Source of the DNA: Chloroflexota bacterium
GTDB lineage: Bacteria; Chloroflexota; Anaerolineae; B4-G1; SLSP01
Direction of reading: 5' to 3'
Length of the DNA: 32,358 nt
NCBI GenBank assembly: GCA_029555965.1
Contig: JAKQHY010000038.1
Location: forward strand, 1 to 32,358
The position numbers and the translations under genes were made by a program. Below, piece by piece: positions 1,846-21,069 of this stretch. The notes beneath the pieces were generated by a model that was not told the origin of the DNA, did no database searches, and worked only from the letters and a program-made list of their open reading frames with translations. Within the stretch, counting starts at the first letter, position 1. The number at the start of each line of letters is the position of its first letter.

Positions 1846-2619
1846 ATGGCGAAGATCATCTCGGTTCATTCTTTCCGCGGCGGCACGGGGAAATCCAACT
1901 TAACGGCGAACCTCACCTCGTTGGTCGCCCAACAAGGGTATCGGGTCGGCGTGGTGGATACGGACATTCAATCGCCTGGCATCCATGTCATCTTTGGAAT
2001 GGATGAAGAAAAGATGGACAAGGCGCTCAACGACTATTTGTGGGGGCGCTGCGCCATTGAAGACACCGCGTACGATGTCAGCCCGGTGTTGAAGGTGGAC
2101 GGAGGGGAGGTGGCCGTCATGGGTGGGGGGATTTACCTGATCCCTTCCAGTATCAAGGTGGGTGAAATCGCGCGCATCCTCCGCGAGGGGTATGATGTCA
2201 GCCTGCTTAACGATGGGTTTCAGGACCTCATCAATCGTCTCAATCTGGATTATCTATTTATTGATACACACCCTGGCTTGAATGAGGAAACGCTGCTCTC
2301 AATTGCCATCTCCGACATCTTCTTACTTATCCTGCGCCCCGATCAGCAAGATTTCCAGGGCACCGCCGTCACCGTCGAGGTGGCGCGCAAACTGGACGTG
2401 CCCAAAATGCTGCTCGTGGTCAACAAGGCGTTGCCCTCCTTCGATTTTACCGCGCTCAAAAAGCAAGTGGAGAGCACCTATCAAGCGCCCGTCGCCGCCA
2501 TCCTGCCGCTGTCCGAAGATATGGTGCGACTTGCCAGCAAAAGCGTGTTTAGCCTCACCTATCCAGATCACCCCCTTACCCAACGCTATCGGGAGATTGC
2601 CAAGCAAGTGATGGCTTAA
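1846..2619 (+). CDS. MinD/ParA-family P-loop ATPase
   Basis: A 257-residue protein. The ATG at 1846 follows GAAAGGAG; longer in-frame readings run back through the MITE-like repeat and were rejected. The N-terminus HSFRGGTGKSNLTANL is a deviant Walker A (residues 8-23) in which the usual signature Lys of KGGxGKS/T is Arg11. The switch region DTDIQSPGIH and the Walker B-like FIDTHPGLNEETLLSIAISD fit MinD/ParA ATPases, which act as ATP-dependent dimers on membranes or DNA. No C-terminal amphipathic MinD targeting helix is obvious. It is the first gene of a tight operon with polyamine and cyclase genes. It is unlikely to be the chromosomal ParA or divisome MinD, because no ParB or MinC lies nearby. 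Its cargo is unknown. Confidence 0.9.
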   Translation: MAKIISVHSFRGGTGKSNLTANLTSLVAQQGYRVGVVDTDIQSPGIHVIFGMDEEKMDKALNDYLWGRCAIEDTAYDVSPVLKVDGGEVAVMGGGIYLIPSSIKVGEIARILREGYDVSLLNDGFQDLINRLNLDYLFIDTHPGLNEETLLSIAISDIFLLILRPDQQDFQGTAVTVEVARKLDVPKMLLVVNKALPSFDFTALKKQVESTYQAPVAAILPLSEDMVRLASKSVFSLTYPDHPLTQRYREIAKQVMA

Positions 2620-2630
2620 GGGGGCGTGGG

Positions 2631-2987
2631 GTGAATACAGGATTATTCGAGCAGTTGCAGCGGAAGCTGGATGAGCAGGAGGCTGCCGGCCTGACGATGA
2701 CCGAGGTTCTCACGATGGCCGCGCCTTTGCGGCGGTTGGTGAACTGGATGTTGCGTCAGCCGCCCGTCACGTTCACAGATGTTATGGCCTTCGTCGCAGA
2801 GGATGAGGGCGCCACGCGCGCTATGCTGAAGGCGTTGATGGAGAAAGGCATCGTACATTCTGTGAACGACGCTGAAGTCCTGCGCTATCGCGTGCAAATC
2901 GCCCCTCGCCGTGGGCGGCCTATCCCCCTGAATATCTGGCAATCCCTTGAAGAAAAAATCCAGAACGAACAGGAGTATCTACCATGA
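2631..2987 (+). CDS. Small protein with a winged-helix-like core
   Basis: A 118-residue protein with a GTG start at 2631, 11 bases after the MinD-like stop, preceded by a G-rich GGGGCGTGGG. Residues 20-90 read as a winged helix: helices around MTEVLTMAAPLRRLVNWML and TFTDVMAFVAEDEGATRAML, a recognition-like helix KALMEKGIVHSV, then a short wing EVLRYRVQIAPRRGR. The C-terminus is a charged helix. It ends in a 4-base overlap (ATGA) with the zinc-protein gene, which implies translational coupling. The fold could bind DNA or act as a protein adaptor for the ATPase. The exact family was not recognised. Confidence 0.72.
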   Translation: MNTGLFEQLQRKLDEQEAAGLTMTEVLTMAAPLRRLVNWMLRQPPVTFTDVMAFVAEDEGATRAMLKALMEKGIVHSVNDAEVLRYRVQIAPRRGRPIPLNIWQSLEEKIQNEQEYLP

Positions 2988-3196
2988 AATGTTTCTTTTG
3001 TGACCAACCTGCGCAAGGAGTCTGTCGCTTTTGCGGGCGGGCTATCTGCAAGGAGCATGCCAAAACTTCCCCCTACATCATCACCGTCTATATTGGCAAA
3101 GATAATACGCCTAAGTCCATTGTCGTGGCCGATGCGCTTTACTGTGGGACCTGCAAACCGCATCCCGAACCTGTGGAAATACCGGAGATCTATTGA
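2984..3196 (+). CDS. Small zinc-binding (B-box/zinc-ribbon-like) protein
   Basis: A 70-residue protein. The motif series CFFCDQPA, CRFCGRAICKEHA and finally CGTC gives three CxxC-type knuckles plus a His, like a B-box or treble-clef zinc finger. No signal peptide or membrane segment is present. The ATG overlaps the previous stop by 4 bases (ATGA). Its TGA overlaps a TTG start of the transporter gene in the same way. A small cytosolic zinc module between an ATPase and a transporter suggests an adaptor or assembly role, but this is inference. Confidence 0.8.
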   Translation: MKCFFCDQPAQGVCRFCGRAICKEHAKTSPYIITVYIGKDNTPKSIVVADALYCGTCKPHPEPVEIPEIY

Positions 3197-4551
3197 ATAT
3201 TAAAACGCGCATCCAACAGGCCCTCAACATTCGCACCGATGAATGGGGCCTGTTGTTAGTGTTGATCGCCCTTATTGCCCTCAATACAATGGCGCTGGAA
3301 AGCGCCGACGTGGTCGCTACTAGCAGTTATTTGGCGCAGTTGGGAATGAGCGCGCTGCCCTTGTTGTGGCTCGCCGATATGGCGGTGATTGGGCTGTCAT
3401 CGGCGCTTTACACCTTGATTGCGGACCGTTTCCCCCGCCGCACCCTGCTGCAAGGCTTAATGCTCGGTTTTGGGGGGACGTTGCTCGTCATTCGCGGGCT
3501 GATCGCCTATAGCTCGCCAGGAATCAGCTATACCCTGCTGTATATTTTGGTGGATCAGCAGCTTATTCTTTTCCCGCTAAGCTTCTGGGCCTTGGCGAAC
3601 GACCATTACAATGTAGCGGCCAGTAAGCGGCTATTTCCCATCATCGCGGCCGGGGGATTGATTGGAAATGTGCTCGGCAACGGGCTGGCCGGACAATCGG
3701 CCCTCCTGCTGCGCCGTTGGGGATGCTCCGGCGACGATCTGCTCTTCGTGTGCAGCGCCCTTTTCTTCTTGACGTGGAGCCTGGTGACGCTCGCCCTGCC
3801 CAAACGCCAACCCGCCCCGCCGCCGGCCGCCATCTCCGCAAATGTCCTCCGCGAAACTTGGGAGGTCGGGCGCGACTTTGTCAAAAACATCCCCCTGTTC
3901 CGCTACCTTTTTCTGGCGCTATTTCTGAGCGAAATTGCCCTGACCATCATCGAATATCATTTTCTGGCCCAAGCCACCGGCCGATTTGCCGACCTGCTCC
4001 AATTTCAGACTTTCTACGGCATTTACAAGGCCGCGCTCACTGTTCTCCCACTCTTGCTACAACTCTTCGTGACCGGGCGGCTGATGGAAAAGTTGGGATT
4101 AAAAAATGTGTTCTTCATCTACCCCGCCGTGCTTTTCCTCGGTTCGGCGACAGCAATGACCTTCCTTAACTTTGCGGCAGCCGTAGGCGCCAACCTTAGC
4201 GCGCGTATCGTCCTGAATGCCGTCGAAAGTCCGGCCCGAAAGTCCGTTCAAGGATTGATCCCGGACGCCAAACGTGGGCGCGTCGGCGCTTTTCTGGACA
4301 GCTACGTGTACGCCGTCGGCACCATGGCCGGTTGTCTGATCCTGGAAGGATGGATCCTCCTGGGAGAAAACGCCATCCTTAGTCCGCAAACTGTGATCAT
4401 CGGCTATAATATGCTCAGCGCCGTGGCCGCAACCGCCACCTTATTTCTGGTGTTCCGTTTGCATAAAACCTATGACGAGAGCCTGTGGCATCCGTGGTTG
4501 GCGCGGCGCAAACGACACAGTATGACAAGTAGCCTGTTGGAGAAATTATGA
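3193..4551 (+). CDS. Polytopic transporter of the NTT (ATP/ADP translocase-like) / MFS type
   Basis: A 452-residue membrane protein with about 12 hydrophobic helices. The TTG start at 3193 overlaps the previous stop (TTGA), with GGAG five bases upstream; the next in-frame ATG would remove part of the first helix. ALANDHYNVAASKRLFPII, followed by GGLIGNVLGNGLAG, resembles the conserved segment of bacterial NTT/Npt-like nucleotide transporters, and the rest looks MFS-like. The C-terminus is short, basic and cytosolic. The next two genes make aminopropylated polyamines, and the last makes a cyclic nucleotide. A nucleotide, AdoMet-related compound or polyamine is therefore the likely cargo, but the sequence does not say which. 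The gene overlaps speD by 4 bases. Confidence 0.85.
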   Translation: MNIKTRIQQALNIRTDEWGLLLVLIALIALNTMALESADVVATSSYLAQLGMSALPLLWLADMAVIGLSSALYTLIADRFPRRTLLQGLMLGFGGTLLVIRGLIAYSSPGISYTLLYILVDQQLILFPLSFWALANDHYNVAASKRLFPIIAAGGLIGNVLGNGLAGQSALLLRRWGCSGDDLLFVCSALFFLTWSLVTLALPKRQPAPPPAAISANVLRETWEVGRDFVKNIPLFRYLFLALFLSEIALTIIEYHFLAQATGRFADLLQFQTFYGIYKAALTVLPLLLQLFVTGRLMEKLGLKNVFFIYPAVLFLGSATAMTFLNFAAAVGANLSARIVLNAVESPARKSVQGLIPDAKRGRVGAFLDSYVYAVGTMAGCLILEGWILLGENAILSPQTVIIGYNMLSAVAATATLFLVFRLHKTYDESLWHPWLARRKRHSMTSSLLEKL

Positions 4552-4901
4552 TTGCCGGGATGCATTATGTGATTGACTTTCTGGAAATGGAGGATAGCAA
4601 AATCCTCAACGATCCTGAAAAACTGGTGGCCTATATGGAGCACACCATTCAGGTTGCCGGCCTTGAAATGATTGGGGAACCGCTTATCCACAAATTTGAG
4701 CCACATGGACTCACCTACCTGGTGTTGCTGGCGCAATCGCATCTCGCGGTCCACACCTGGCCTGAACATCACTATATGGCGGTAGATTTCTTTACCTGTG
4801 GCGATCCCGCTGAAGGGCAAAGAGCCTGCGAAGGGTTGAAGCACCTGATTCCTTGCGGCCACATCGTCGAACATGTTTTTGAAAGGCGCACTACCCTATG
4901 A
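4548..4901 (+). CDS. speD: S-adenosylmethionine decarboxylase proenzyme (SpeH/SpeD class 1b) or a derived pyruvoyl decarboxylase
   Basis: A 117-residue protein, the usual length for prokaryotic class 1b AdoMetDC. These proenzymes cleave themselves before a Ser to make a pyruvoyl cofactor, then decarboxylate AdoMet to supply aminopropyl groups. The core SHLAVHTWPE holds the pyruvoyl-forming Ser64 and the processing His69, and Cys84 sits in FFTCGDP. All three match the family positions. The residue before Ser64 is Gln (LLAQSH), where most enzymes have Glu (ESH). Divergent relatives of this family are known to use ornithine or arginine, so the substrate is not certain. The 4-base overlap with speE supports the AdoMet role. 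Confidence 0.9.
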   Translation: MIAGMHYVIDFLEMEDSKILNDPEKLVAYMEHTIQVAGLEMIGEPLIHKFEPHGLTYLVLLAQSHLAVHTWPEHHYMAVDFFTCGDPAEGQRACEGLKHLIPCGHIVEHVFERRTTL

Positions 4902-5716
4902 ACCAATACCGCGAACGCTTAGGCCAGGGTGAAGAACGTGTGTTCACCGTTGAAGAAACGCTCTACCAGGGGCAAACCGCCTTTCAGAATGTAGACATCA
5001 TCCGCGCCACAGGCTATGGGCGCGTGCTTTTTCTGAATGGCGAACGCCAGAGCAGCGAGGCCGACGAGTTCATTTACCACGAAATGCTCGTCCATCCCAC
5101 GCTGTTTCGACACCCGGCCCCCCGACGCATCTTCCTCGCCGGCGGCGGTGAAGGCGCCGTGAGCCGCGAGATACTCAAACACACGAGCGTGGAGACTATC
5201 ACGCAGGTGGACATTGACGGGCAACTCATCGAACTATGCCGCCAATATTTGCCCGCCTGGAGCCAGGGCGCTTATGAAGACCCACGCCTACACCTCATCA
5301 TCGGCGACGCGCTGGCGCACTTGCGCCAAACGGACGAGCGCTACGACATCATCTTCCTCGACCTCCCCGAATGGTCGCCGGATACGCCGGCGCGGGAATT
5401 GTACACCCCTGAATTCTATGCCCTGGTTCGCCAACGGTTGTCGCCCGGTGGGTTGATGGCCCTGCAAGTTGGTCCGGTGCATCCGGTTCACCTGGCCCCC
5501 TTCATCAACGTGGCGCAGCGCGTGCGCGCGGCATTTGCCCACGTGATCCTCTACCCGGTGACGGAACTGCGCTGGGGTTTCGGGATCTGCGCAGACGCGC
5601 CCCCGCCTGCCGGGCTGTTTGACGCGGCGCGCCTTGCCGCGCCGCTGCGCTACTACAATGCGCAACTCCACGCCGAGCTGGGCGCGCTCCCCACCTACAT
5701 CCAACAGGCGCTCTAA
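4898..5716 (+). CDS. speE: Spermidine synthase-like aminopropyltransferase
   Basis: A 272-residue protein that transfers an aminopropyl group from decarboxylated AdoMet to a diamine. It has the short N-terminal strand domain and the Rossmann core: AGGGEGAVSRE (81-91), the acidic pocket QVDIDGQL, and GDALAHL. The catalytic segment is FLDLPEWSPD with Asp155, where classic enzymes read DSTDP or DSSDP. The second conserved Asp is therefore Glu158 here, which may change amine preference, for example thermospermine or another amine in place of spermidine. The QSSEADEFIYHEML segment that positions the amine is intact. It shares an ATGA overlap with speD, so the pair is translationally coupled. Confidence 0.93.
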   Translation: MNQYRERLGQGEERVFTVEETLYQGQTAFQNVDIIRATGYGRVLFLNGERQSSEADEFIYHEMLVHPTLFRHPAPRRIFLAGGGEGAVSREILKHTSVETITQVDIDGQLIELCRQYLPAWSQGAYEDPRLHLIIGDALAHLRQTDERYDIIFLDLPEWSPDTPARELYTPEFYALVRQRLSPGGLMALQVGPVHPVHLAPFINVAQRVRAAFAHVILYPVTELRWGFGICADAPPPAGLFDAARLAAPLRYYNAQLHAELGALPTYIQQAL

Positions 5717-5718
5717 CC

Positions 5719-6258
5719 ATGTCACACGCAGCATTGCAGGCAGCGTGGTGGCAACGGCTGGAAAAGCTGCACCAACGCGCGGAGGGGGCGTCGGGATTGG
5801 CGTGCGCGGCGCGCTGCACGGCGCGCTGCTGCCCCCACGCGGCCATGGCGACGCAGCCGCCGGCGTACACCGTCAGCCATGTGATGATTATGCTGCCCTT
5901 TGAAATGGACTATATTCTGGCAAAGACAGCCCTAGACCCGGCGCGCCTCCGGAAAATTTCCGTTGAGATCGCGCCCGGCCTCGTTCACGAGATCGGCTTT
6001 GCGAACGTGGCGACCCCCTGCCCTTTCCTGACCGCCGACTTCCGCTGCGGCGCCTATCGCTTTCGCCCGCTGGATTGCCGCAGCTTTCCACTGACGCCGG
6101 TCTTTGGGATGGACGGCGCCCTGGATTTCCGCTTGACCACGACTTGCCCCTCGCTGGATACCTTCGCCCACGCCTATCAAGAGCAACTCAAGACCGTCTG
6201 GCGCGACCTTTTGCCGCACCTATCTATGGCATATCGTGAGGTCTATAATCAACTTTAA
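5719..6258 (+). CDS. YkgJ-type cysteine-cluster protein
   Basis: A 179-residue soluble protein whose ATG lies two bases after the speE stop. It has an N-terminal Cys set (CAARCTARCCPHAA), then CPFLTADFRCGAY, RPLDCRSFP and TTTCPSLD. This is the layout of the YkgJ/UPF0153 family, which is thought to bind zinc or an iron-sulfur centre. Catalysis is unproven in this family. RFRPLDCRSFPLTP is the most typical stretch. Its place between aminopropyltransferase and sensor genes suggests a metal-dependent accessory role in the operon, by context only. Confidence 0.8.
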   Translation: MSHAALQAAWWQRLEKLHQRAEGASGLACAARCTARCCPHAAMATQPPAYTVSHVMIMLPFEMDYILAKTALDPARLRKISVEIAPGLVHEIGFANVATPCPFLTADFRCGAYRFRPLDCRSFPLTPVFGMDGALDFRLTTTCPSLDTFAHAYQEQLKTVWRDLLPHLSMAYREVYNQL

Positions 6259-6269
6259 GGAAGTGCATT

Positions 6270-7250
6270 ATGTCTCGACTCAGCATCCGCATGAAATTGT
6301 TGATCGTTTTTACCCTGCTGTTCGCTGCCGCGTTCGCCTTGGTATTTGTATGGTTCTACAATTTCGGCACAGCGTTGGCGATGGATGACCTGCGCAGTGA
6401 TTTGATGGGCGCCGCCAAAACCGCCGCAGCGATGATGGACGTGGAGGCGCACACCCAGGTCGCCACGCAGGGCGTCGAGGATGATGCACTCTATACCCAT
6501 CTGGCGCAGCAGTTGCGGCAAGTGCGCGACGCCAACCCCAAGATCGAAGCGATTTACACGATGGTGCGCGCCGATAGTCCCAACGAGTTGCTCTTTGTCA
6601 TCTCCGCCGATGAAAACCCTGAAACGCGCGCCCACTTGCGCGAACCTTATTCGGTGGTGGAATTCCCCCAAATGCTCCGGGCATTTAACGCGGCCACCTC
6701 GGACAACCAGATTGAGCAGGATGAATTTGGCGCATGGTTCTCCGGTTATGCTCCCATCATAGATACCAACGGACAGGGCGTCGCCATCGTCGGCATTGAT
6801 ATGAAAGCGCAGGATGTCATTGACATCCAGCATCGCATCCGGCAAACCAGCCTCTTTACCTTTGTGCTGGTGTTGCTGGTGCTGTTGGGCGCCGTGTTTC
6901 TCATCTCGTTCACCATCACGACCCCCTTACGGCACGTCACCAATGCGGCGCGCAGCCTGGAAAGCGGCGAAAGATTTCAGGAAGGCCAACTCGCCTCCGT
7001 CATGAAAGGGAACGATGAGTTGGCGCACCTGGCGCGGGTCTTCAGCAGAATGGCAATGGAGATACAGGGCCGCGAGGAAAAACTCAAACGACAGGTCGAA
7101 GAACTGCGGATCGAGATTGACGAGGTCAAGAAAACGCGCCACGTCGAAGAGATTGTGGAAAGCGATTATTTCAAGCAGTTGCAGGCCAATGTGCAAACAC
7201 TGCGCCAACGCACCCGGCAAAGGAACGCGCCGCCGCCTGAAGAAGCGTAG
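6270..7250 (+). CDS. Membrane sensor protein: extracytoplasmic domain, HAMP, coiled coil, no output domain
   Basis: A 326-residue protein with TM1 at about 8-28 (LLIVFTLLFAAAFALVFVWF). An extracytoplasmic domain of some 160 residues follows, similar to a Cache/PAS-like sensor (IEAIYTMVRADSPNELLFVI and FSGYAPIIDTNGQGVAIVGI). TM2 lies at about 192-215, then a HAMP domain from ITTPLRHVTNAARSLESGE to DELAHLARVFSRMA, and a charged coiled coil (KLKRQVEELRIEIDEVKKT). There is no kinase, methyl-accepting or cyclase domain. The gene sits 11 bases before the large cyclase gene and 11 after the Cys-cluster gene. It most likely passes an external signal to that cyclase through the coiled coil. The ligand is unknown. 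Confidence 0.88.
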   Translation: MSRLSIRMKLLIVFTLLFAAAFALVFVWFYNFGTALAMDDLRSDLMGAAKTAAAMMDVEAHTQVATQGVEDDALYTHLAQQLRQVRDANPKIEAIYTMVRADSPNELLFVISADENPETRAHLREPYSVVEFPQMLRAFNAATSDNQIEQDEFGAWFSGYAPIIDTNGQGVAIVGIDMKAQDVIDIQHRIRQTSLFTFVLVLLVLLGAVFLISFTITTPLRHVTNAARSLESGERFQEGQLASVMKGNDELAHLARVFSRMAMEIQGREEKLKRQVEELRIEIDEVKKTRHVEEIVESDYFKQLQANVQTLRQRTRQRNAPPPEEA

Positions 7251-7261
7251 AGGGGGCTGCT

Positions 7262-10200
7262 ATGTCCGATACAGTCTCGCTAATCCCGAAAGCGCAACAA
7301 GTCCGCTTGCAACGCTTTTTGCCAGCGGAGTTAAAGTCCCGTCTGGAAGGCCGCCTCACCCTGCGCGACCTGCGCGAGATGTCCGAAGCCCTCGATTCTT
7401 TGCGGCACAACCTCAGCACGTATCTGACGCGCGAGCTGCATACCCCCAGGGAACCCGCCGCCATCCCCTACAGCCGGTGGATCGAGGGTACCACCCTGTT
7501 TGCCGATCTAACCGGGTTCACGCCCCTCACCGAACATCTGCGTGAGCTGGGTGACGAAGGCGCAGAACGCCTCAATACGATGCTCAACGATTTATTTGCG
7601 GCGATGCTGGAGCCGCTGACGTTTGCCAGGGGGGAACTGCTGGAATTTGCCGGGGATGCGATCCTGGCTTACTTCCCCGCCCAGGCGGGCGCGGAAGATG
7701 CCCTGTGGGCTACCCGCGCCGCGCTGCGAATGATGCGCGCGCTCTTGCGGACCGGCTACAGCGAAGGGCCGTATCCCCTCAAAATGAGCATCGGCCTGGC
7801 GCGAGGGCGCTTTTTCGCGGCGGAAATTGGCAACACGCAGCGCATGGAGTATGTGATCGTCGGCGGCACAATCCCCCAGGCCATGATCGCCGAAGGCCAG
7901 GCCGCGCCGGAAGAAGTCTGCGTTGCGCCCGGCATGACGGCCCTGCTGGCCGAAACCTTTCGCCTCCGCCCGGCCCCTAACAGTCATGCCATTGTCATAG
8001 ATGATTTCGGCGAGCGCCTGGATGCATACGAACTCGACATCCTCAGCAGCCGCCGGCGGCGGGGGCAACTCCTGGCGCTGGAGCAGGACGCCGCCGCCAT
8101 TCTCCAGGCCGTTGAGGAGAATGTCGCCACCGTGGAACGCCTGGCGCGTTTCTTTCCGCCCTACGTCCTCAACCTTATCGTGGCCCATCAGCGCGCGCGC
8201 CAATTCACCGGCGAGCATCGCGCGGTCTCGATCATCTTCGCCAACTTGCGTGGCTTCGAAACGCTGCTTGAAGCGTTGGGGCCGCCGGCGGAACCGCTGC
8301 TGACGGATTGGCTCAACCAATACTTCGTCGCGGCGCAAACCATTATTAGCGAAGCTGGCGGCTTTATCAGCAATGTCGTCTCCTACATCAAAGGGTTTAA
8401 CCTCCTCTGCTCTTTCGGCACGCCGCTCACCGATGAAGAAATGCCCGAGCGGGCCGTCGCCGCCGCCCTGCTGCTCAATCGCCGTCTGGCGGAGCTGGTC
8501 GAGTCGCTGAAAGAAAGGGTGGCGGGCGCGGTCTCCGACCTGTCGGAGAAACTGCCCCAGGGGCTTTCCCTCACCCAGCACATCGGCGTGACCTATGGCC
8601 CGATCTACACCGGCAGCGCGGGCTGGCAAGAGCGCCGGGAGTACGTGACCCTGGGGGATGATGTCAACCTCTCTGCCCGGTTGATGAGTGTGGCCGGGGC
8701 GGGGCAAATTCTTATCAGCCAGCCGATTTACGAGCGGGTATATCACACCTTCGACTGCGAGACGTTGCCGCCGATGCAAATCAAGGGCAAGGCCAAACCG
8801 GTGCCGATTTATGCGGTGCAGCGGCGCGCCCTGGACAGTATGGCGTGGCTCAGTGAAGCTGCCGCCGCTCCTCTCATTGGGCGCGAAGCTGACTTGACGC
8901 ACCTGATTGCGGCCATCAATGCCTTGCAGAGCGGCGCGCACCCGGCGCATGGCGCGGCCGTGACGCTGGTCGGAGAAACGGGGGTGGGCAAAACCCGCTT
9001 GATTGCTGAGGTCGTCCGGTACGCGCGCCGGCACGCGATCCCCCTGCTGGCCGGGCGCTGCCTCGCGTATGCCCAGACCATCCCGTACACCCCCTGGATC
9101 GAGGCGCTGTGGAATTGGTTCGGGTTGGAACGCCTTCCTGACGACGCCGCCCGACGCGCGCACATCTGCCAGACGCTCGAACAACACAATCTGGCCACGC
9201 TGGCTGAGCCGTTTATGACGCTCCTGACGCCCCTGCTGCCGAAGGCGGCCATCCCCTCCCTGGCTACGTCGCTGCCTCCAGCCTCAAAACTCTCCGGTCT
9301 ATACGCGCGCCTGAAGCTGCGTCTGGAGGCGCCGCCGACTGGGATGGTGAATTTGCCGGACATCCTGGCGCAGCGCGTCAATCGGCCGCGCGCCGCCGAT
9401 GCCAACAGACTCCCTGCCGAGGACGGGGATGCGCCGGAAGCCCGCTCGCTGTGGCGCGCGCTACAGGCGCGGGTGGACCCGGCCCAGGCCATTGTGAGGT
9501 TGGCGACAGCGTTGACCCCAACCGGACCGCTCGTCATCATCATTGAAGACCTGCAATGGGGCGATCAGGCTTCTTGGACGGTGCTGCGCGCCCTCGCAGA
9601 ACACACCGCCGAGCGCCCGCTGCTGTTGTTGACCACGATGCAGCCCGGAGAGGTCGCCACGACCTGGTGCGCCCAAGCCGGCTGCCAGTGTCAACTCCTG
9701 GGCGGGCTGAACGCCGCCGAGATCGCCAGGATCGCCGCCAGTCACCTGCAAGCCCCACCGGCTCCTGGCTTGGTCGAATGGCTGATCAAGCGCACTCAGG
9801 GCAACCCGTTGTTTATCGTGCAACTCCTGCACGCGCTGATTCATTCTGGGGCGCTGGTCAAAGACGCGGATACTGATGAGCTGCGCCTCAAAGACACGCA
9901 GATTGAACTGCCGCCCACCGTGCGGGAAATTATGCTCAGTCGAGTGGATCAGCTCCCCGAAGAGACCCGCACGGTGTTCAAACTGGCCGCGGTCATCGGA
10001 GAGACCGTCCCCTTCAATTTGCTCACGCGCGTCGCCGGCCTCAGTCGCCCGGCGTTGATGAGCCACATCACCGTATTGACCCGCCACGGTCTGCTGACGC
10101 CCCCGCCGCCTTCTTTTGAGTACACCTTCACCCACCCGTTGCTGCGCGAGGCGCTTTATAGTAGCCTCGCCTACACGCAACGGCGGGCCTGGCACCGCGC

Positions 10201-10477
10201 CATCGGGGATTGTCTGGCCGGCAATGCGCCGGAAACGTCCCAGCCCCACCTGGAGATGTTGGCCTATCACTACGCCCACAGCGACAAACCGGCGCTAGGC
10301 GCGCGGTACAACCGGCTTGCCGGGGATCGCGCCTGCGAGCAACAAACGTGGGACGCCGCGCGCGCTTACTACCGTCAGGCCCTCGCCATCGAAGGCGCCG
10401 ATTCCGCCCTCCAGGACGAACAACGCCGCGCGGCGGAAGCCTTACAGGCCCTGGAAGACCATCTGTCTTCTCACTGA
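7262..10477 (+). CDS. Tandem class III nucleotide cyclase with STAND-like ATPase and C-terminal helical repeats (soluble adenylyl cyclase-like)
   Basis: A 1071-residue protein with the domain order of soluble adenylyl cyclases: cyclase C1, cyclase C2, ATPase, helical repeats. C1 (about 70-250) has both metal Asps, D82 in FADLTGF and D132 in FAGDAILAYF. At the Asn/Arg positions it reads GGTIPQAMIA (Pro205, Ile209). C2 (about 315-520) has lost the metal Asps (N328 in FANLRGF, F379 in KGFNLLCSF) but keeps N469 and R473 in GDDVNLSARLM. One composite active site per C1/C2 pair is predicted. The ATPase has GREADL, Walker A GETGVGKT (571-578) and Walker B IIIEDLQWGD (about 758-767). TPR-like helices end the protein. 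As last gene of the operon after the HAMP sensor, it likely produces cAMP; GTP use is not excluded. Confidence 0.93.
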   Translation: MSDTVSLIPKAQQVRLQRFLPAELKSRLEGRLTLRDLREMSEALDSLRHNLSTYLTRELHTPREPAAIPYSRWIEGTTLFADLTGFTPLTEHLRELGDEGAERLNTMLNDLFAAMLEPLTFARGELLEFAGDAILAYFPAQAGAEDALWATRAALRMMRALLRTGYSEGPYPLKMSIGLARGRFFAAEIGNTQRMEYVIVGGTIPQAMIAEGQAAPEEVCVAPGMTALLAETFRLRPAPNSHAIVIDDFGERLDAYELDILSSRRRRGQLLALEQDAAAILQAVEENVATVERLARFFPPYVLNLIVAHQRARQFTGEHRAVSIIFANLRGFETLLEALGPPAEPLLTDWLNQYFVAAQTIISEAGGFISNVVSYIKGFNLLCSFGTPLTDEEMPERAVAAALLLNRRLAELVESLKERVAGAVSDLSEKLPQGLSLTQHIGVTYGPIYTGSAGWQERREYVTLGDDVNLSARLMSVAGAGQILISQPIYERVYHTFDCETLPPMQIKGKAKPVPIYAVQRRALDSMAWLSEAAAAPLIGREADLTHLIAAINALQSGAHPAHGAAVTLVGETGVGKTRLIAEVVRYARRHAIPLLAGRCLAYAQTIPYTPWIEALWNWFGLERLPDDAARRAHICQTLEQHNLATLAEPFMTLLTPLLPKAAIPSLATSLPPASKLSGLYARLKLRLEAPPTGMVNLPDILAQRVNRPRAADANRLPAEDGDAPEARSLWRALQARVDPAQAIVRLATALTPTGPLVIIIEDLQWGDQASWTVLRALAEHTAERPLLLLTTMQPGEVATTWCAQAGCQCQLLGGLNAAEIARIAASHLQAPPAPGLVEWLIKRTQGNPLFIVQLLHALIHSGALVKDADTDELRLKDTQIELPPTVREIMLSRVDQLPEETRTVFKLAAVIGETVPFNLLTRVAGLSRPALMSHITVLTRHGLLTPPPPSFEYTFTHPLLREALYSSLAYTQRRAWHRAIGDCLAGNAPETSQPHLEMLAYHYAHSDKPALGARYNRLAGDRACEQQTWDAARAYYRQALAIEGADSALQDEQRRAAEALQALEDHLSSH

Positions 10478-10652: not shown

Positions 10653-12686
10653 CTACGGCACGTAACGCGCCAGGCCGCCCTCGCTGGCAGCGAACCAGGC
10701 CGTACCGGCGCTGTCTACCAGGACGCTTTGCCGTCCGTAAAACTGATTGGAAGGCAAGCCCTGGGCGCCGGTGAGGGTATACCACCGGTTGTCTTCGTAG
10801 AACGCAACGCCGCTACTATACAATCCTAACCAGAGTGTTCCATCTGGGGCAGCGAAGATGGTGTTAATCTCGCTATCGGCTTCGTAGATTTCCTCGAATT
10901 TTTCGGTTTTGACATCGTAGCGCACCAACTTCCGCCCCACACCCAGAAGGGGTGTGCCGTCCTGGGCCAGGGACATGGCGCTGCTTCCCGCCGAATATAA
11001 CGACGTAATCCCCGGCAGATCGTCAGTCCACATCGTCATCTCATCGTTTTCATCGAAGCGGAACAACGTATCATACGTGCCGACCCATACATTCTTTCCA
11101 TCGGACAGCAAGGCGTATACCGTGCGCGGCGAGTCTTCCTCGGCGCGTTCTTCGTCGGTGAGCAGGTCATAGTAGGTGAACTTGTCGTCATCCATCACGG
11201 ACAGGCCGTAGCCATTGCCAAACCAAACGCGACCTTTGCCGTCTACGGTGATGACGGTGGCGCCAGTGTTGTAGATACCCTCGCCGGGTTCTTCAACATA
11301 GTCGTAGTTGGTCCACTCCTCATCTGCATAGCTGTAGTAGCTGGCCCCGGCGCTATGCGCGATCCACCACCCCTCCTCAGTATGGAAAAAGCTGGAAACG
11401 CTGTGGCCGTCCATGTCATTGGTTTTCCATTCGCCATCGGCGTCGTAGGCGGAGAATATTTGCAGGCCAAACGAACCGCCAAGCCAGATGGCGCCGTCAG
11501 GCGTTTCGGTGATGGCTTCGTAATGGTTGCTCAGGGGTTTTTCGTCAAGGATGAAGGATTTCCACGATTTGCCGTCGAAGCCACTAATGCCCTCTCCATC
11601 ATCAGCGTAGAACAGATACCCTTTCTCGTCCATCACCATGGCGTTGAGTCCACCCACCATGCCATCCTCGTCTGAGTACAGTTCGACGCACGTTTCCTGG
11701 ACGGGATCAAAGCGGCAGATGTCGCCGAAGGTATTGCCGATCCACAGCGTGCCGTCATCGGCCACAATCACACTCTCAAAAGCATCCAGGAAGGGGAAAT
11801 TTTCTACATTGTCACTGTTGTAGAGCGTCCATTTGCCCCCGCTATATTTGAGCAAGCCGTCGAAAGCCGCCATCCAGATATTACCGGCAGCATCGCCGGC
11901 AACGGCGCTCACACTTTCATCCGGGATGTTCGCCAGGTCCTCATCGAAACCCTCGATTGTGCCGTCAGCGTGGATGACAGACGAGCCGAACGAGGATACA
12001 ACCCACAAGTCAGTGCCGATGAATTTGGCGTCGTCTACCCAATCGGTGATCAGTCCGTCATCCTCATCCAGGTAAAGCCATTCATCATCCGCGAAGTCGT
12101 AGATGTCCAGCCCGAATGTATAGCCAATGAAAAGCAATTCACGCTCGGTGTCGCAGGCGAGGTAATCCACGCTATCGCGGTGCATTCCGCTGTTTTCAGA
12201 GGTCATCACCTGCCAGGCGGCGTTTTCCTCGCCAGGGGCAAGGTAGGCCAGGCCTTCATCGGTGCCCACATAGATTTTTTCGGCGAAGGGGCAGATGGCG
12301 ACGGCCTCGGTGTCGTTGGTGGGCAGACCGTCGCGGGTGTCGTAGGCGATGATCTCCTCGGTATCTATATTCCAGATGACCACGCCGCCACCCGTCGCCG
12401 CAACGATCACATCTTCCAGCACGGCAATGTCGCGCACGTAGTTGCCGTTGGTGTATTGATACCACCCGGATTCCAGATCGAGTTCTGGGGCCGGGGTGGC
12501 CGTCGGAACTTTAGGGGTGTTGGTGGGTTTGGGCGTAGCCGTCGGCGCGGGAGTGTTAGTGGGCTTGGGCGTCGCGGTGGGCGCGGGGGTGTTGGTGGGC
12601 GGGATGGGCGTCTCTTTGGGAGCGCCGCAAGCCAGGGTCAACGCAAACAAAGCAAATACCAGCAGCCATGTGAATCGCGTCTTCAT
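10653..12686 (-). CDS. Secreted lipoprotein with two-component-regulator-type beta-propeller repeats
   Basis: A 677-residue protein whose ATG at 12686 follows AAAGGAG. The signal peptide ends in a lipobox (LTLAC, Cys20), so it is predicted to be lipid-anchored outside the membrane. A Pro/Thr linker follows with tandem PTNTPAPTATPK units; the matching DNA repeats every 36 bases or so. The rest is beta-propeller blades with recurring LYVGTDEGLAYL, IWMAAFDGLLKYSGG, LWIGNTFGD and VWFGNGYGLSVMDD motifs. These are like the Reg_prop repeats of hybrid sensor kinases, and at least 12 are visible. No kinase or enzymatic domain is attached. Binding of a surface ligand or partner protein is the likely role. 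The protein is strongly acidic. It reads convergently towards the cyclase operon. Confidence 0.88.
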   Translation of the reverse strand: MKTRFTWLLVFALFALTLACGAPKETPIPPTNTPAPTATPKPTNTPAPTATPKPTNTPKVPTATPAPELDLESGWYQYTNGNYVRDIAVLEDVIVAATGGGVVIWNIDTEEIIAYDTRDGLPTNDTEAVAICPFAEKIYVGTDEGLAYLAPGEENAAWQVMTSENSGMHRDSVDYLACDTERELLFIGYTFGLDIYDFADDEWLYLDEDDGLITDWVDDAKFIGTDLWVVSSFGSSVIHADGTIEGFDEDLANIPDESVSAVAGDAAGNIWMAAFDGLLKYSGGKWTLYNSDNVENFPFLDAFESVIVADDGTLWIGNTFGDICRFDPVQETCVELYSDEDGMVGGLNAMVMDEKGYLFYADDGEGISGFDGKSWKSFILDEKPLSNHYEAITETPDGAIWLGGSFGLQIFSAYDADGEWKTNDMDGHSVSSFFHTEEGWWIAHSAGASYYSYADEEWTNYDYVEEPGEGIYNTGATVITVDGKGRVWFGNGYGLSVMDDDKFTYYDLLTDEERAEEDSPRTVYALLSDGKNVWVGTYDTLFRFDENDEMTMWTDDLPGITSLYSAGSSAMSLAQDGTPLLGVGRKLVRYDVKTEKFEEIYEADSEINTIFAAPDGTLWLGLYSSGVAFYEDNRWYTLTGAQGLPSNQFYGRQSVLVDSAGTAWFAASEGGLARYVP

Positions 12687-19470: not shown

Positions 19471-21069
19471 TTAAAACAACTCCGGTTGCTCTCCCACGGG
19501 CTTTTCCTGCTTCGCCTTCTTGAAGCTCAACCCACCCTGCGATAGGTCAACGTATTTGGGCGCTTCGGTTCCGGCGAGCAGGCCCTCAATGGTCAAAATT
19601 TGGAGCCTGGGGAAGTTGCCGTGGTGCGGGGAGGTGTAAAAGCCCGCGCCGGCGGCCTCGGTCAGCATCGGTTTGGTCGGCGGCGCGAGGGTGACGAACA
19701 ACCCGATGGCCGCCTTCTCGCGCTCGACGACGTGGGCCAGCTCGCGGATCATGGCGACGGTGACGCGCTCGCCGCCTTTGACGGAGACGACGATTTTCTT
19801 GGCCGCGCTTTTGACGTCATCTTTGAAGTAGATCACGCCGTCAATGCCGGAATCCGCGCCCTTTTTCTTGCCCTGATACGGCTGCGCGCCCACCAACGCA
19901 CACGCCCACCACTGGAATTGGTATTTGTCGCGCGCGGCCAACTCCTGCGCGCCGGCTGCGTCTTTGGGCGTGCCGAGAACCTCGAACTGCAAGCCGGGGA
20001 ACGCATCTTTCAGCCGCTTTTCGATCAGGCCGATGGCGAGGTGCGTGATGTCAATGCCGATCCATTCCCGCTCCAGCTTTTGCGCGGCGTGGACGGCGGT
20101 GCCGCAGCCGCAGAACGGATCGAGCACCACGTCGCCGGGATGGCTGCTGGCCTGGATGATGCGCTCCAGGAGGGCCAGGGGTTTTTGGGTGGGGTAGCCG
20201 AGGCGTTCGGCGGCTTGGGAGTTGATGGGGGAAATATCGTCCCACACATCTTGAAGGGGCGTTCCTGGCATTTCATCCAAGTAGCGGATGTATTCCACGC
20301 TGCCCGATTTTGTATAATGCAAACGGCCATTGTCATGAAGCTCGCGCATTTTCTCCTGAGGGCAACGCCATATTTTTGTTACCCCATTCCATTCGTAGGT
20401 GTAACCTCCGCCAGACAGTCCCGTGGCTGTCAGATTATCGGTCCTATATCGGCGGCCCGCAACATCTACATACCGATAATGGCTTTTAATATAGCTGTCG
20501 TTGTAGGGTTGATATTGTTTATTCCAAACGCTCTCATCCGTCTTGGTGTATAAAAAAAGAATATCGTGAGCATTCCCCATTGTTTTCGAATCGCTATGCG
20601 CACTGGTGCGTTTCCAGGTAATTTCATTTTGAAAATTCTCTGGCCCAAACACCGCATCCAACACAATCTTGAGATAATGACTCGCGGTCGGATCGCAATG
20701 CAGATACAGACTCCCCGTCGGCTTGAGCACACGATGCAGTTCCAGCAGCCGGTTCGCCATCATCGTCAGGTAGGCCATCACGTCGTTCTCTCTCAAAAAA
20801 CGGCGCAGGGATTGGATCATCTCGGACACGTCGGTATTGGCCTGATGCACCAGCTCGTCGAACTCGCGCTCGGCCTGCTCGCCCCAGTGCCACGTATCCT
20901 CAAACGCCTGCACCTGCGCATCGGAGGCGTGGCCTTTGGGCGTCTTGAACAACACGCTATAGTCGCGTTTGCTGTTGAACGGCGGATCGAGGTAAATCAG
21001 GTCCACGCTTTCGTCTGGGATGTGCTCGCGCAGAATGTCCAGGTTATCGCCAAAATAAAGTCGGCCCAT
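19471..21069 (-). CDS. Beta-class DNA methyltransferase fused to a PD-(D/E)xK nuclease-like domain
   Basis: A 532-residue protein. The start follows GGGAGGCGACG. The N-terminal domain has the catalytic motif IV DPPF (D28-F31), a target-recognition region (about 150-270) with TWKRTSAHSDSKTMGNAHDI, and then motif I LDPFCGCGTAVHAA (316-329). DPPF before motif I is the beta-class order; these enzymes are N6-adenine or N4-cytosine methyltransferases. Residues about 385-500 look like an Mrr-type restriction fold: GADSGIDGVIYF (D406, D410) then KKIVVSVKGG (K431). A protein of this form could be a self-contained restriction-modification enzyme or a methyltransferase with a regulatory nuclease remnant. 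The TPR gene ends 10 bases upstream, so the two are co-transcribed. Confidence 0.88.
   Translation of the reverse strand: MGRLYFGDNLDILREHIPDESVDLIYLDPPFNSKRDYSVLFKTPKGHASDAQVQAFEDTWHWGEQAEREFDELVHQANTDVSEMIQSLRRFLRENDVMAYLTMMANRLLELHRVLKPTGSLYLHCDPTASHYLKIVLDAVFGPENFQNEITWKRTSAHSDSKTMGNAHDILFLYTKTDESVWNKQYQPYNDSYIKSHYRYVDVAGRRYRTDNLTATGLSGGGYTYEWNGVTKIWRCPQEKMRELHDNGRLHYTKSGSVEYIRYLDEMPGTPLQDVWDDISPINSQAAERLGYPTQKPLALLERIIQASSHPGDVVLDPFCGCGTAVHAAQKLEREWIGIDITHLAIGLIEKRLKDAFPGLQFEVLGTPKDAAGAQELAARDKYQFQWWACALVGAQPYQGKKKGADSGIDGVIYFKDDVKSAAKKIVVSVKGGERVTVAMIRELAHVVEREKAAIGLFVTLAPPTKPMLTEAAGAGFYTSPHHGNFPRLQILTIEGLLAGTEAPKYVDLSQGGLSFKKAKQEKPVGEQPELF

Follow-up and report, generated by a model that had tools for sequence, protein, structure and literature searches.

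Streptomyces conservons (Cvn) comprise a sensor kinase-like protein (CvnA), a roadblock protein (CvnB), CvnC and a Ras-like GTPase, CvnD (PMC13343842). In design they are the nearest analogue, albeit with a different nucleoside triphosphatase (NTPase) and different partners, of the locus described here, a nine-gene operon at 1846..10477 on the plus strand of a stretch of Chloroflexota DNA. This whole stretch, hereafter the window, covers bases 1 to 32,358 of contig C125, in an assembly of 4.9 Mb that is 84.7% complete.

The operon is one copy of a gene set spread over Chloroflexota and cyanobacteria, and the conserved unit is a probable signalling relay, not polyamine metabolism. Its recurring core consists of a sensor tail, a MinD-type ATPase, a zinc-type protein, a winged-helix protein and a tandem cyclase, while the enzymes on the transporter side vary. 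We consider it probable, though well short of certain, that a predicted PAS/Cache-HAMP sensor acts through a 54-residue tail on the MinD-type ATPase. The tail is common to many unrelated sensor types and is linked to the ATPase, often being fused to its N-terminus; we infer the tail–MinD contact, its direction and its output. The three features concerned are:

1846..2619, plus strand: MinD-type ATPase, 257 aa, with P-loop RGGTGKS, Arg standing for the signature Lys (alignment A2 and 120 listed homologues)
6270..7250, plus strand: membrane sensor P0008, with a predicted extracytoplasmic PAS/Cache domain, HAMP and a C-terminal tail (Pfam HAMP; AlphaFold model)
7050..7211, plus strand: 54-residue tail of P0008 (alignment A1, whole-genome searches and MinD fusions)

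A tail shared by unrelated sensors

The tail was first recognised when sensors encoded near MinD loci were read side by side and showed a common C-terminal stretch behind differing N-terminal parts. Its consensus is REExLxxQVxxLRIEIDExKRxRQVxEITETDYFQxLxxxARxLR, from alignment A1, which comprises 24 of the 30 listed tails (from the window and from relatives belonging to the same class, with no cyanobacterial row). Invariant residues of the tail in A1 include R8, E9, I35, F41 and R52. The preceding domains can be HAMP with PAS/Cache, 4HB/CHASE3 or GAF, a cyclic nucleoside monophosphate (cNMP)-binding domain or, in cyanobacteria, CHASE2 or Tll0287-HAMP. In P0008 the tail is a coiled coil at the C-terminus, and no catalytic domain was found in this protein. 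The AlphaFold model of P0008 (predicted local distance difference test, pLDDT, 87.3) gave structural matches to the sensor domains of DctB, CitA, DcuS and WalK.

No convincing model for the tail was present in Pfam, where the best match, at E 0.0013, was HAUS2 (matched by 6 of the 24 members at 0.1), or in NCBIfam (best E 0.033). Our own tail model gave no match in 19,838 shuffled open reading frames (ORFs). Bacterial membrane sensors devoid of a catalytic output domain are hard to assign to a pathway, and the tail links a set of them to one ATPase.

Co-occurrence, linkage and fusion of tail and ATPase

Among 99 related genomes, MinD (E 1e-20) was detected in 23 and the tail (E 1e-4) in 24; 23 genomes had both, one had the tail only and 75 had neither (Fisher p = 1e-21, a value that, like the cyanobacterial one below, ignores kinship between genomes; presence/absence counts are not phylogenetically independent, which weighs against the relay). 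At the genus level, 18 of 75 genera had both and 57 had neither. In genera g11 and g39, some members had both and others neither, as if tail and ATPase had been gained or lost jointly; several assemblies are incomplete.

Given the composition of A1, the search of 292 cyanobacteria for the tail was out of sample. MinD occurred in 41 of these genomes and the tail in 40 (weakest match counted, 1.8e-5), with 40 having both, one MinD only and 251 neither (Fisher p = 1e-48; the overlap was obtained by comparing by eye the two full lists of matching genomes).

We mapped 107 MinD loci, 10 of which were set aside as second copies of the same genomes, leaving 97 non-redundant loci for the linkage counts. 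A tail was found within 1 kb of 56 of the 107 MinD copies (97 non-redundant loci), as compared with 16% by random placement. All but one of these 56 tails were on the same strand and 54 lay upstream on MinD's strand, with a median gap of 154 bp. The window is outside the 56, since there the tail gene, though part of MinD's operon, follows MinD at a distance of 4.4 kb downstream. Around the MinD loci of relatives, we repeatedly observed a HAMP sensor upstream and zinc-type, winged-helix and tandem cyclase genes downstream. Tails also occurred far from MinD within one genome (e.g., G073 and G038), so several sensors may share one ATPase.

A search with a cNMP–tail–MinD protein (L038) as the query returned 371 homologues, of which 120 were listed. 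Among these listed matches, 45 had the tail and MinD within a single chain, the tail being N-terminal without exception (the 45 constitute A3; A4 holds 59 of 106 matches plus the window protein). The tail was preceded by a receiver domain in 30 of the fusions, by a cNMP domain in eight and by a Cache-type domain in six, the remaining one (P0141) being a fragment that begins in the tail. Seven longer homologues among the matches listed had no recognised tail, and one of them bore a PrsW protease domain. A model of a natural tail–MinD chain (318 residues, 254 of them in the ATPase) reached a predicted template modelling score (pTM) of 0.86, which would exceed the expectation for placement of the ATPase alone, with pLDDT values of 90–94 for tail residues 21–40.

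Many bacteria have MinD-like proteins and HAMP sensors, and a generic pair of them could in principle have come to be co-transcribed by chance. Such an ordinary neighbourhood is contradicted by the near one-to-one co-occurrence in two phyla, the directional adjacency and the repeated fusions, and we regard it as extremely improbable.

Two further arrangements were seen. P0148, P0149 and similar cyanobacterial proteins combine, on one chain, a HisKA-like segment (no kinase ATPase domain was listed), a receiver, a HAMP-like coil, the tail and MinD; in chains of this type, a phosphorelay input into the ATPase is possible. In three genomes of one genus (L043, L044 and L045, the first of which was scanned with Pfam), genes for non-ribosomal peptide synthetases and for an extracellular solute-binding protein adjoin the relay.

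The MinD-type ATPase

The fold and the P-loop place the window ATPase with MinD/ParA proteins, while the signature Lys of the deviant Walker A motif (KGGxGK) is replaced. The Arg at this place was invariant in the 16 rows of A2 (16 of the 30 listed MinD matches) and present in 114 of the 120 listed homologues. One search for MinD relatives covered the best 80 of 587. Scores were below the cut-offs for MinD proper, the cell division protein (TIGR01968, 40.1 vs 212.9 bits; TIGR01969, 90 vs 201.75). Solved folds matching the ATPase include MinD, FleN, FlhG and McdA, in a comparison (VIA-align) that spans residues 64–318 of the tail–MinD model.

With such a fold, the ATPase might instead position or cluster the tail-bearing sensors without being itself the signal output. 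ParA/MinD-type proteins position chemoreceptors, flagella and carboxysomes, and a tail acting as a cargo handle accounts equally well for the co-occurrence and the fusions. However, fusions to soluble cNMP and receiver-domain proteins require no membrane clustering, and the Arg in place of the signature Lys may alter the dimer cycle. Moreover, MinD is encoded with, and in two cyanobacterial genomes (L071 and L103) fused to, a predicted DNA-binding, winged-helix domain. Overall, positioning seems to us a possible but rather unlikely role.

One contig (L040, from G002) has two consecutive MinD copies, each with its own zinc-type protein. A gene for a PrsW-type intramembrane protease recurs near relay loci (L033:4259-5422, L036:10144-11343 and others; a BLAST cluster of 14 ORFs, one of which was scanned with Pfam), and in P0228 a PrsW-type protease is fused to MinD.

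Organization of the operon

An earlier note on this DNA had described nine plus-strand genes with four 4-bp overlaps and gaps of at most 11 bases, and reading the junctions from the sequence bore this out: the successive values are 11, –4 (ATGA), –4 (TTGA), –4 (ATGA), –4 (ATGA), 2, 11 and 11 bp. The families it named (MinD/ParA-type ATPase, SpeD, SpeE, TLC/NTT transporter, HAMP sensor and class III cyclase) are correct at the Pfam level. The gene list in its title omits the winged-helix (2631-2987), zinc-type (2984-3196) and CxxCxxCC (5719-6258) genes. The sensor-cyclase of that title turned out to be two separate genes, both present, the cyclase gene encoding two cyclase domains and an AAA ATPase. 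Based on Pfam and NCBIfam, the gene order is MinD-type ATPase, winged-helix, zinc-type, TLC/NTT, SpeD, SpeE, CxxCxxCC, sensor, and tandem cyclase with AAA. Besides the three features given above, the operon contains:

2631..2987, plus strand: 118-aa protein with a predicted winged helix, starting at GTG (sub-threshold Pfam match to Penicillinase_R, E 0.021; homologous fused domains)
2984..3196, plus strand: small zinc-type protein of 70 aa, B-box-like and rich in Cys and His (sub-threshold Pfam matches to zinc fingers)
3193..4551, plus strand: TLC/NTT-type nucleotide-transporter-like membrane protein, TTG start (PF03219)
4548..4901, plus strand: SpeD-like S-adenosylmethionine decarboxylase (PF02675 and TIGR03330 above cut-off)
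4898..5716, plus strand: SpeE-like aminopropyltransferase, loop DLPEW (PF01564; below NCBIfam equivalog cut-offs; best solved relative, 1uir)
5719..6258, plus strand: CxxCxxCC putative metal-chelating protein (PF03692, 23.5 bits, cut-off 23)
7262..10477, plus strand: tandem class III cyclase P0009 with AAA ATPase domain, 1071 aa (Pfam, residue comparison)
7466..8026 (approximate), plus strand: cyclase domain C1, both metal Asp kept, catalytic Asn and Arg absent
8213..8818 (approximate), plus strand: cyclase domain C2, Asn at the first metal position, Asn/Arg pair kept
8870..9628, plus strand: AAA_16 ATPase domain with Walker A and B

The operon is flanked by minus-strand ORFs (300-1463 and 10653-12686), and Rfam and transfer RNA scans of the window gave no matches. 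Upstream of the operon lies an element resembling a miniature inverted-repeat transposable element (1450-1633, about 184 bp), with 18-nt inverted ends that are 94% complementary and a perfect 23-nt inner palindrome; about 30 long copies of it occur in the assembly. Between this element and the MinD start, an inverted repeat of CGCAGAG units (1730-1796) has 28-nt arms that are 86% complementary. Further downstream, at 19471-21069, reading the translation by eye revealed a gene for a DNA methyltransferase that has a restriction-like extension at its C-terminus.

The tandem cyclase

The best solved match of P0009 was ADCY10, spanning both cyclase domains. Across the 14 full-length family members, C1 always retains both metal Asp residues and has always lost the Asn, the Arg being lost in 13 of 14; in C2, the first metal position is occupied by Asn and the Asn/Arg pair is retained in all 14. 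These residues point to one active site divided between C1 and C2, as in the soluble adenylyl cyclase (sAC) type. The bicarbonate-site residues of human sAC are K95 and R176. At the aligned places, the window cyclase has Glu first and no Arg second (7 of 14 family members have Lys first), so that ADCY10-like regulation should not be assumed.

The operon could also be read as a cyclic-nucleotide anti-phage defence system of the Pycsar type. PADLOC PycC models do match the cyclase domains (best 6.6e-16), while the mad2 model matches SpeE and the PDC-M28B model matches MinD. These look like general fold matches, the folds being those of class III cyclases, methyltransferase-type proteins and MinD-type proteins, and no Pycsar effector model matched any of the nine proteins at 1e-5. 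For both reasons the defence explanation, whose chances we put close to nil, was dropped.

The transporter and its variable enzymes

The transporter belongs to TLC/NTT by its PF03219 score (26.6 bits, curated cut-off 21). Relatives at E 1e-20 were present in 14 of the 99 genomes, all of them among the 23 with MinD, and 12 of 16 TLC genes had a tail within 3.5 kb, on the same strand in 12 of 12. Elsewhere, TLC relatives carry HEAT and cNMP domains (L034) or HEAT (L042).

SpeD and SpeE were each found in 2 of the 107 loci, namely in the window and in G002, where the SpeD–SpeE block is retained (SpeE 77% identical). In the window's family, SpeE (E 1e-30) occurred in 2 of 24 genomes, both times inside this operon, a scarcity that weakens the idea of a housekeeping pair; some SpeE match at 1e-30 was present in 15 of the 99. 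The window SpeD is the only one found in its assembly.

With TIGR03330, SpeD scored 97.3 bits (cut-off 75.65). Its self-cleavage site, where Glu-Ser is expected, reads Gln-Ser in both the window and G002, and the G002 copy also lacks the His of HTWPE. SpeE passes at the level of the Pfam domain and falls short of the NCBIfam equivalog cut-offs (NF002010, 228.9 vs 260; TIGR00417, 205 vs 249.55); its loop is DLPEW, vs DLTDP in 1uir, a polyamine aminopropyltransferase. Given the Gln-Ser site and the altered loop, the product may be something other than plain spermidine. The CxxCxxCC protein is YkgJ-like; a relative occurs in L040, and another is fused to GNAT in L057 (GNAT above, CxxCxxCC just below cut-off).

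Other loci have different genes at this place. In G011, whose MinD is 81% and whose transporter is 34% identical to those of the window, a D-Ala-D-Ala-ligase-like ATP-grasp gene between transporter and sensor replaces SpeD-SpeE-CxxCxxCC; ahead of the transporter lies a methyltransferase gene. Between the transporter and the tail sensor, or just past the sensor, we found a radical-SAM gene in three genomes of one genus and in the cyanobacterium L103, the CxxCxxCC-GNAT fusion in L057, ATP-grasp-type genes in L050 (just above one Pfam cut-off) and in L201 and L207 (below), a GNAT-like gene below cut-off in L201 and a methyltransferase in L205. The 40 neighbour proteins scanned with Pfam were hand-picked from mechanical ORF lists. 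The enzymes next to the transporter look exchangeable, an add-on that would be under the control of the relay.

These data bear on the purpose that the earlier note had assigned to the operon, a dedicated unit that makes and moves a polyamine and is governed by a cyclic nucleotide together with an external signal. The mid-operon position of SpeD and SpeE, with 4-bp overlaps, would suit such a unit, as would the lack of a second SpeD in the assembly and the persistence of the block in G002. Yet the pair is confined to two loci, different enzymes adjoin the transporter elsewhere, and the Gln-Ser site and the missing His in G002 make classic polyamine chemistry uncertain. In addition, characterised TLC/NTT proteins transport nucleotides and NAD (PMC5381601). 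A polyamine unit is hence improbable in our view. What does stand is the idea of one operon-like unit with sensor, MinD-like ATPase, transporter and cyclase, as the same parts recur together in other genomes. Conservation of the full nine-gene set was given up as an idea after the 107 loci had been mapped.

Proposed relay

In the relay that we favour, a change in the coiled coil of the sensor would alter the nucleotide state or the dimerisation of the ATPase. The ATPase would in turn control, probably at the transcriptional level, the two proteins of winged-helix and zinc type; their linkage is observed, and the winged-helix protein would bind DNA. The tandem cyclase would produce cyclic AMP (or cyclic GMP), to be read in other genomes by the cNMP-binding versions of the tail. 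The transporter and its adjoining enzymes (here SpeD, SpeE and CxxCxxCC) would form an exchangeable output or ligand-making block, either controlled by the sensor or supplying its ligand. The relay is favoured by a chain in L054 that reads GAF-GAF-tail-winged helix, and by the MinD–winged-helix fusions of L071 and L103.

Several observations, in addition to the kinship between genomes, count against this relay. The window's assembly, incomplete as it is, yielded a single tail protein, and no tail attached to a cNMP domain. No recognised tail lay within 1 kb of 51 of the 107 MinD copies; within the same distance, the zinc-type protein was found at 26 of 107 copies and the winged-helix protein at 50 of 107, and the assignments of both are based on Pfam matches below cut-off. 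The first 20 tail residues of the tail–MinD model have a pLDDT of 56–62. Of the two MinD–winged-helix fusions, the one in L071 has no P-loop and that in L103 reads RAGTGQS, so both may lack ATPase activity. In the cyanobacterium G200, MinD is matched weakly and no tail is present, while G008 has tails and no MinD was found in it. In G008, the cluster of cNMP-tail and cyclase genes reaches the contig end, where L043 and L044, from the same genus, continue toward MinD; an assembly gap is therefore a fair guess.

A bolder version of the relay, which we offer as decidedly speculative, would define a separate receptor class. In such a class, the tail would couple any sensor (PAS/Cache-HAMP, CHASE2, GAF, cNMP or receiver) to a MinD-type switch, much as HisKA and methyl-accepting chemotaxis protein tails couple sensors to kinases and CheA. 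The transporter-side enzymes (SpeD-SpeE; elsewhere radical-SAM, ATP-grasp or GNAT) would make a small amine-type molecule, exported by the transporter and read by the adjacent sensor, each operon being a swappable self-sensing channel.

Comparison with known systems

Tail-bearing sensors span at least two phyla, filamentous cyanobacteria included, and the natural fusions point to the protein that receives the signal. A receptor-to-MinD pathway is directly testable in culturable cyanobacteria, among which Leptolyngbya sp. PCC 6406 and Fischerella sp. PCC 9431 are carriers. The operon also provides a bacterial sAC-type cyclase whose genetic context is known, and shows a setting in which unfused NTT carriers occur. 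Coupling of a sensor tail to a MinD-type ATPase was not found described in the open-licence full text of PubMed Central, outside which most subscription papers lie.

We know of no conservon counterpart of the shared tail or of direct sensor–ATPase fusions. What the two systems have in common is an operon in which a membrane sensor is combined with a P-loop NTPase switch and with small partners. The NTPase of the window is of the MinD type, not the Ras type, and no Pfam family of the conservon subunits (roadblock, CvnC, Ras-like GTPase) was found among the nine proteins at E 0.1.

The tail resembles the signalling helix (S-helix) in being a conserved coiled coil between sensor and output; the S-helix is about 40 residues long with an ERT signature (PMC1592074), which occurs in none of the 24 tail rows of A1. 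Fusions of NTT, HEAT and cyclic nucleotide-binding domains (NTT-HEAT-cNBD; PMC5381601) have the same transporter domain as the window protein, whereas the latter is unfused and lies inside a relay operon; the part of PMC5381601 available mentions neither MinD nor the tail.

As in ADCY10, C1 and C2 occur in tandem with a single active site apparently split in the same way, and the window protein continues into an AAA ATPase domain. In contrast with ADCY10, this cyclase is bacterial, is encoded in an operon with a membrane sensor and lacks the bicarbonate-site Lys and Arg.

Finally, the ATPase shares its fold with FleN (which acts with FleQ), FlhG and McdA, and the solved FleN-FleQ complexes imply that an AAA+ transcription regulator can be the target of a MinD-type ATPase. 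Unlike in FleN, FlhG and McdA, the signature Lys is an Arg in the window protein, which would receive its input through one tail common to a family of sensors.

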